In this document: piece after piece, positions 31,473 to 31,922 of the stretch | Position numbering within the stretch: position 1 is the first letter of the stretch | How the letters are laid out: every line of letters starts with the position of its first letter | DNA from: Pseudochryseolinea flava | GTDB lineage: Bacteria > Bacteroidota > Bacteroidia > Cytophagales > Cyclobacteriaceae | Assembly: GCF_003286915.1 (NCBI RefSeq) | Contig: NZ_QMFY01000001.1 | Location: 124,001-188,000 of the forward strand | Length of the DNA: 64,000 nucleotides | Reading direction: 5' to 3' | Position numbers and translations under genes: made by a program | The notes under the pieces: model-generated | Database searches by the model: none | What the model was told of the DNA's origin: nothing | The model's input: only the letters and a program-made list of their open reading frames with translations

Positions 31473-31504
31473 TTTGGAAACACGTTATTCCAATTCTAGT
31501 TTTG
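31473..31504 (+). promoter_or_regulatory. Promoter of the metY-metX-hom operon
   Basis: TTTG at 31473-31476 and TAGTTTTG at 31497-31504 are separated by 20 bp, the spacing of Bacteroidota housekeeping promoters. A start near 31511 would give a leader of about 410 nt before metY. Confidence 0.7.
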
Positions 31505-31536
31505 TGTCCTCAAGTCGAAGAAGCGATCCGCTTTAT

Positions 31537-31649
31537 CGATTTATAAAGAAGCGTGGAGAGACAGGCTCTTAGAAACGCTAGCAACCTCCTGAAAACAGAA
31601 AGGTGCTAAATCCTGATCCGATCTCAATTGGGACGGAAAATATAAACCG
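31537..31649 (+). ncRNA. SAM riboswitch (SAM-I / S-box type) upstream of metY
   Basis: Closing helix P1 forms between CGATTTATA (31537-31545) and TATAAACCG (31641-31649), with one mismatch. Inside it run the conserved SAM-I blocks GCGTGGAGAGACAGGC, then AGAAACGCTAGCAACCTCC, and AAGGTGCTAAATCC, in the right order and spacing. SAM-I RNAs bind S-adenosylmethionine and repress methionine genes when SAM is high. The following genes make homocysteine precursors, which agrees. There is no T-run terminator right after P1. P1 ends only 8 nt before the start codon of the Cys-rich leader ORF, so ligand-bound P1 could hinder its translation. Confidence 0.88.
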
Positions 31650-31657
31650 ATTAAAAA

Positions 31658-31786
31658 ATGAAAAATTTCATTTCAAACATTGCCGGTAACACCCTTAGCA
31701 GGTTGCGTTCGATCCATTCCACCAATTTCCAAATTATTTGTTGCTGCATGTGCGCCATGTGTTGTTGCGCATGCTGTTGCTGCTAA
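31658..31786 (+). CDS. Cys/Met-rich leader peptide upstream of metY (42 codons)
   Basis: This ORF is too short for standard gene calling. It starts with ATG at 31658, 8 nt after the riboswitch, and begins MKNFISNIAGNTLSRLRSIH. The last 15 residues are CCCMCAMCCCACCCC, which has 11 Cys and 2 Met, followed by TAA at 31784. Such a run of the amino acid whose sulfur the operon handles is the hallmark of a transcription- or translation-attenuation leader peptide. The final Cys codons (31772-31779) are perfectly complementary to 31806-31813, so a ribosome stalled at the Cys codons would open that stem. It is probably not a functional protein as such. Confidence 0.75.
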   Translation: MKNFISNIAGNTLSRLRSIHSTNFQIICCCMCAMCCCACCCC

Positions 31787-31813
31787 TTCGTAAGCGCTCC
31801 GCTTCCAACAGCA
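31772..31813 (+). promoter_or_regulatory. Attenuator-like stem formed by the leader's Cys codons
   Basis: TGCTGTTG (31772-31779) and CAACAGCA (31806-31813) form a perfect 8-bp stem, and between them AAGCG (31792-31796) and CGCTT (31800-31804) form a small inner hairpin. A third partly paired segment lies at about 31826-31852 (ACCTTGC against GCACGGT, one mismatch). No T-run follows, so regulation at the level of translation, or by a factor-dependent stop, is more likely than an intrinsic terminator. The structure is read by eye. Confidence 0.6.
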
Positions 31814-31922
31814 AACTAGCCAATGACCTTGCCAAGTGACAAGCACGGTTACCGCTACGTCTAACATCGACTATCCAAAACAAGAGTTCCACGCGTCTTA
31901 AAACATTTAAAATTTTACAGTT

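Follow-up and report, generated by a model that had tools for sequence, protein, structure and literature searches.

The SAM-I (S-box) riboswitch, mycobacterial poly-Cys ORFs, Rho-linked upstream ORFs (uORFs) and a B12 riboswitch followed by a uORF have each been described, and the pairing of a SAM riboswitch with a cysteine leader does not appear in the available parts of these accounts. In mycobacteria, leaderless polycysteine short ORFs are presented, by the title of the report, as a cysteine-responsive attenuator (Canestrari 2020, mentioned in PMC13236596). At the ppe2 locus of Mycobacterium tuberculosis, the available part of the account describes a B12 riboswitch ahead of a short translated uORF, with expression of the gene depending on uORF translation (PMC11260477). 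For mgtL and mgtA of enteric bacteria, the corresponding excerpt reports that the efficiency of uORF elongation sets Rho-dependent termination, that the signal is Mg2+ acting via proline and acidic codons, and that efficient mgtL translation represses (PMC11552253). A search of the open-licence literature, judged by title and start of abstract among the matches listed, found no report of a SAM riboswitch paired with a cysteine leader, and the pair is absent from the available parts of accounts of leader peptides in Flavobacterium psychrophilum and Bacteroides thetaiotaomicron and of uORF finding.

The locus analyzed here lies in a 64,000-nucleotide stretch of the Pseudochryseolinea flava genome (the window). 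Like an S-box leader, it has an end-to-end match to the SAM-I model above the cut-off upstream of methionine genes; unlike many of them, no terminator-type expression platform (a common but not obligatory component) was found at its metY, and a leader ORF comes next. With the mycobacterial short ORFs, as far as their title and its mention describe them, it shares a poly-Cys ORF ahead of cysteine or sulfur genes, but theirs are leaderless whereas the ORF here begins at 31658, behind an aptamer and a predicted promoter box ending at 31504. The mycobacterial ORFs are not known to involve a riboswitch. The likeness to ppe2 is a riboswitch ahead of a short ORF, which in our case is predicted; in ppe2, by the part of the account at hand, the stop codon overlaps the start codon and a reinitiation mechanism is put forward (PMC11260477), whereas here about 64-139 nt separate the stop codon from metY and the ORF ends in codons for amino acids of the pathway itself. 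The mgtL leader resembles ours as a uORF with a Rho-linked output (proposed here), while the available part of its account mentions no metabolite aptamer in front (PMC11552253), the place taken here by the SAM-I aptamer.

All elements of the window locus lie on the forward strand. A predicted promoter, TTTG-N20-TAGTTTTG, was located by motif match at 31473-31504, its box ending 33 nt 5' of the aptamer, and we take it to be of the Bacteroidota -33/-7 type. The same motif with a spacing of 17-23 nt (TTTG-N-TAGTTTTG) was found upstream of 43 of 111 aptamers of the family Cyclobacteriaceae, against 0.1 expected from shuffles. The SAM-I aptamer (RF00162) spans 31538-31648, matches the full model with 72.4 bits against a gathering threshold of 44.4, and is the sole Rfam match at that threshold within the whole window; with our family model (R1) it scores 90.1 bits, its own sequence being part of the model alignment. 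A spacer of 9 nt (31649-31657) leads from P1 to the leader start codon. The leader ORF (31658-31786, from the ORF list) runs from ATG to TAA with 42 codons plus the stop, encodes MKNFISNIAGNTLSRLRSIHSTNFQIICCCMCAMCCCACCCC, and has a similarly placed counterpart in most of the 112 family loci described below. Its last 15 codons (31739-31783) encode CCCMCAMCCCACCCC, with 11 Cys and 2 Met, and Cys is enriched at this position across the family. These data bear out the earlier note on this DNA, which had proposed a SAM-I aptamer and a Cys/Met-rich leader ORF in series and had counted the same residues in the run; its placement of the aptamer and the shortness of the distance to the ATG also stand, while its exact ends (31537-31649) and its spacing of 8 nt are corrected. 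A post-leader interval of 136 nt (31787-31922; 27.9% C, 15.4% G) forms a candidate rut or output region, in which a terminator-like site was sought and none was found. The operon had been read as metY-metX-hom. This holds for metY (O-acetylhomoserine sulfhydrylase, 31923-33245; TIGR01326, 681.3 bits) and hom (homoserine dehydrogenase, 34357-35595; NF004976/PRK06349, 330.2 bits), both above their cut-offs; the gene between them (33314-34360) is metX-like, its match to the homoserine O-acetyltransferase model TIGR01392 (346.4 bits) lying below the model cut-off of 500.

Conservation of this arrangement was evaluated in 148 genomes of the Cyclobacteriaceae; 145 of them contain a match to SAM-I, and in 116 a close match to MetY was found. 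Using a covariance model built from 32 family aptamers, we found the aptamer at every one of the 112 metY loci examined (from 117 family matches), although in seven (L065, L070, L084, L086, L097, L107 and L141) it lies 700-830 nt upstream of metY, with an ORF between the two in L084. Leader ORFs were then assigned by a Cys-blind rule that takes the first ATG after the aptamer irrespective of Cys content. Such an ATG occurs within 40 nt of the aptamer at 105 loci and is lacking at seven; the spacing is 6-11 nt in 90 of the 105, which is consistent with the earlier suggestion that P1 lies near enough to the start codon for bound SAM to block initiation. The 105 ORFs have a median length of 38 and none exceeds 70; four with fewer than ten residues were dropped, leaving 101 ORFs of at least 10 codons. 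In these the last ten residues are 33.0% Cys (333/1010) and the preceding bodies 1.8% (41/2290), and the last 30 nt contain 333 TGY codons in frame against 91 and 22 in the other two frames. A second rule, which selects the most Cys-rich ORF among the ATGs around the aptamer end and so favours Cys a little, found three or more Cys among the last 12 codons at 77 of 112 loci and in 48 of 64 genera, loci and genera being non-independent as several species represent a genus; 39 of 2310 control ORFs from the same DNA (1.7%; one ORF per stop codon) reached this level. By both the Cys-blind test and the control-ORF null, a short ORF with a Cys tail follows the SAM-I aptamer more often than chance. 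The ORF position and the C-terminal Cys run, whose conservation in relatives had been named as a test of the proposal, are both kept. Fewer than three Cys in the last 12 codons were found at 35 of 112 metY loci, and for 16 of 64 genera this holds for every member examined; most of these 35 loci retain an ORF at a similar place, some with a Met-rich or Arg-rich end and some with nothing obvious. Several Cys-poor leaders are Met-rich, and in one genus (g50; L164, L166 and L167) the leader ORF is kept and ends in MRP in place of Cys. A switch of the sensed amino acid is possible in such leaders.

To establish which genes carry the pair, SAM switches other than those of metY were included in the analysis. 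Seven species of the genus together have 28 switches. A leader in which three or more of the last 12 codons are Cys follows the switch at metY (7/7), at an operon with a PhyH gene (7/7) and at an operon with a binding-protein-like gene (4/4), while it follows none of the seven metH switches. The genus sulfatase gene carries it at one of two loci (the second has two Cys) and the TonB-plug gene lacks it at its single locus (0/1). The PhyH, sulfatase and binding-protein labels were tested on one member each (L003, L058 and L035) and extended by likeness, and the TonB-plug label was tested on L053, the PhyH label at L045 being assigned through a later gene of the operon; for metH, homocysteine S-methyltransferase was tested on L002 and the other copies were labelled by likeness. 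At both sulfatase loci (L057 and L058) a short ORF ends in FCCR or FCCC, its ATG 27-28 nt past the aptamer. In the window's own genome there are three SAM switches, those of metY and PhyH with a leader and that of metH without. The PhyH locus (L003, G000:C22:402497-402599) presents a second aptamer and poly-Cys leader, MKTKIDHACEKTPHAFTAFLTRMCCCCC, with 8 nt spacing before a PhyH-family gene. The presence of the pair points to a role of the PhyH operon in handling a sulfur compound. In four species of the genus (L034, L035, L036 and L040) the pair stands before a secreted binding-protein-like gene, for which a Pfam search of the L035 copy returned no match; uptake of a sulfur source is a possible role of this operon. 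In the wider family, 22 of the 23 non-metY SAM loci among L002-L030 have no Cys tail, the exception being the PhyH locus of the window's genome. The split between sulfur-entry genes and other SAM loci is nevertheless not clean, because metX genes outside the family (L177, L217, L231 and L243) carry the pair, as does a Cys/Met-metabolism PLP gene of a Cyclobacteriaceae MAG (L277).

The reach of the pair beyond the family was investigated by scanning named contigs for SAM cores with three Cys codons behind them, which gave at least 120 stretches; as the Cys codons were preselected, and as at least 120 stretches were listed, the numbers say nothing on frequency. Among the matches listed, 39 fit the aptamer model and 35 of these have a leader; of the 81 without a SAM match, four have one by a like rule, the ATG window there being set from the search pattern and not from the aptamer end. 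The records among the matches listed include Cyclobacteriaceae, Fulvivirga, Pontibacter, Pedobacter, Mucilaginibacter, Sphingobacterium, Lewinella, Haliscomenobacter and flavobacterial MAGs. The genes behind the pair in these matches are mostly metY and also include the four metX genes named above. At L183 the pair precedes cysH-cysD, both above NCBIfam cut-offs, and at L174 and L284 it precedes operons whose NIR_SIR-domain reductase passes the Pfam cut-off but not those of the NCBIfam NirA models. It also stands before a TonB-plug-like gene (L170) and some genes without an assigned function. A sample of the phylum drawn with no selection for Cys consisted of the 90 SAM loci ranked best by score of a longer listing. 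A metY-like gene lies behind 46 of these best 90, and a Cys tail was found in 2 of the 46, both in family f3; a third f3 metY locus ends in ACCITRMR, at the metY locus L349 (family f6) the end is rich in Met and contains two Cys, and the remaining metY-like loci of these best 90 were searched for a Cys tail without finding one. The trait therefore belongs to part of the Bacteroidota. Sequence and comparison show that the two-part layout is common in Cyclobacteriaceae and also occurs elsewhere in the Bacteroidota, for the most part ahead of genes for the entry of sulfur into amino acids.

Possible output stages were then compared. Terminator-like sites occur at only 8 of 101 leader loci, the window locus not among them, and are weak (-7.5 to -10.6 kcal/mol), whereas 7 of 18 control SAM loci (the 23 non-metY loci of L002-L030 without L003, L009, L016, L019 and L023) have strong ones (-14.6 to -20 kcal/mol). 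Intrinsic-terminator attenuation was accordingly rejected for the leader class. Strong terminators behind family SAM switches were seen for hom, two of three metX genes, two PLP-enzyme genes and one B12-binding metH part, these labels being partly tested. The window leader has the short ORF with a codon run for a pathway amino acid that marks trp/his-type attenuators, but not the mutually exclusive hairpins ending in an intrinsic terminator. Pairing between the Cys run and downstream sequence gave a weak signal across the family (mean z of -0.26 at 67 Cys-rich loci, Wilcoxon p 0.04, and of -0.41 at 34 Cys-poor loci, p 0.06), so there is no general attenuator fold backing a switch, and the pairing was retained as a genus-level feature only. 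In the genus-level cluster, an RNAalifold stem from 11 close sequences allows the segment CAACAGC (31806-31812) to pair with the last Cys codons, the downstream partner in the cluster being given as CAGCAAC. A hairpin, TAGC...GCTA (31817-31857), is conserved in the same cluster only, a few two-sided changes keeping its pairs, and an Rfam search of the stretch behind the leader ORF, hairpin included, gave no match up to E 10. In relatives (the genus and near genera) the hairpin between leader and metY reads TAGCC..CTGCC..GTGACAGG..GGTTACGGCTA. The gap from leader stop to metY has a median of 98 nt with the 5th and 95th percentiles quoted above (the 99 of 112 loci at which the gene was located within 330 nt), too long for a stop-start overlap, and termination-reinitiation as in ppe2 is thus unlikely. 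Its composition averages 22.6% C and 12.1% G, with C exceeding G in 97 of 99 loci, a bias that is a weak sign of a Rho site; control values are 17.9% C and 16.8% G in 17 control SAM gaps (the 18 loci without L029) and 20.6% C and 18.3% G in 26 upstream intergenic stretches of the window. A Rho gene is present in the window's genome.

Whether the Cys run is read as codons bears on several rival explanations. Comparison of related leaders in 11 overlapping pairs, which have members in common, showed 13 synonymous changes and 7 of other kinds at the Cys codons of the tail (binomial 4e-5 with p=0.22; 0.004 with p=0.33). In two species of the genus (L046 and L047) one change shortens the run to CCC. 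That the TG-rich run acts as an untranslated RNA element appears hardly credible: it can pair with a downstream segment in the genus-level cluster, but this pairing is weak across the family, and both the frame bias (333, 91, 22) and the synonymous changes speak against it. The same synonymous bias would be compatible with a functional Cys-rich microprotein. Peptide bodies, however, diverge between genera with none kept across them, and the window peptide has no match in Pfam (E 0.001) or NCBIfam (E 1), which makes such a product very unlikely. Runs of adjacent Cys can bind metal or form disulfides, and the three to seven adjacent Cys of these leaders might do so; the run could then be a redox, metal or folding sensor, or a mere slow stretch, under the SAM switch, with no reading of charged tRNA-Cys. 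Leaders that are low in Cys, with Met, Arg or Pro near the end, would agree with this, while the divergence of the peptide bodies, the association with sulfur genes and the co-enrichment of Met argue against it, and we regard it as quite unlikely. Met accounts for 104 of 1155 tail and 26 of 1803 body residues in the Cys-rich leaders, and for 36 of 525 and 5 of 759 in the remaining ones; with this tail enrichment of its own, Met may act as an additional input besides Cys.

The reading we favour, and consider probable, is a two-input leader in which SAM would gate translation of the ORF, and Rho or a translational step would turn the reading of the Cys codons into an output. At high SAM, P1 would form and deny the ribosome access to the start codon of the leader, which, left untranslated, would be unproductive. 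When SAM is low, the leader would be translated and the ribosome would probe the supply of Cys (and Met) at the run before the stop codon. With ample Cys it would finish and leave, exposing the C-rich, G-poor stretch to Rho (or no longer keeping the mRNA open); with scarce Cys it would stall over the stop codon and cover the Rho-prone stretch, so that transcription could continue into metY-metX-hom. Full expression of the operon would require both low SAM and low Cys. We infer this AND logic from two demands, repression by excess SAM and induction, in Cys shortage, of the sulfate reduction genes that have a like leader; of all the steps, the direction in which Cys acts and the involvement of Rho are the least certain. 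The sign could be reversed, stalling in Cys shortage turning metY off (for example if Rho loads behind the stalled ribosome) and leaving sulfide to cysteine synthase, with metY on at low SAM and ample Cys. The window's genome encodes CysK, with a match above the cut-off, and has a CysE-like gene whose match lies below it; both would compete for sulfide, and such competition between MetY and cysteine synthase was the rationale of the earlier note; the two genes also led us to reject the idea that Cys is made solely via MetY. Repression in Cys shortage, however, makes little sense for the cysH-cysD and sulfite/nitrite-reductase operons with the same leader, and the reversed sign seems unlikely. 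Cys as the second input is retained, but as a read-out of sulfur supply, which fits better than sulfide competition since the pair also precedes those reduction operons and since the Cys tail is lacking at 22 of 23 family non-metY SAM loci (L002-L030) and at all seven metH switches of the genus.

The shared layout points to a joint reading of SAM and cysteine supply in these bacteria. In its widest form, to which we give slightly less than an even chance, the two-input reading would define a regulatory class spanning several orders of Bacteroidota: the riboswitch would control translation of a codon-reading leader in place of its gene, so that one RNA computes whether low SAM coincides with low cysteine and delimits a regulon of sulfur assimilation comprising metY, sulfate reduction and unassigned operons, while SAM-only switches would serve remethylation (metH). 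If true, this would be a natural two-input RNA device in dozens of genera, with the aptamer governing the entry of the ribosome and the codons its exit, and would account for the way in which Bacteroidota adjust sulfur assimilation to their demand for SAM. It would predict a function for unassigned operons with the pair, such as the PhyH-like and binding-protein-like operons of the genus, and would make a SAM aptamer followed by a Cys-ending ORF a search key for sulfur genes. Shine-Dalgarno initiation is rarely used in Bacteroidota, and the class would also bear on how riboswitches act in such bacteria. Elsewhere in the window, a 539-residue ORF on the reverse strand (36148-37767) has a Cys-rich N-terminus and a long C-terminal repeat region rich in Gln, Gly, Asn and Arg.
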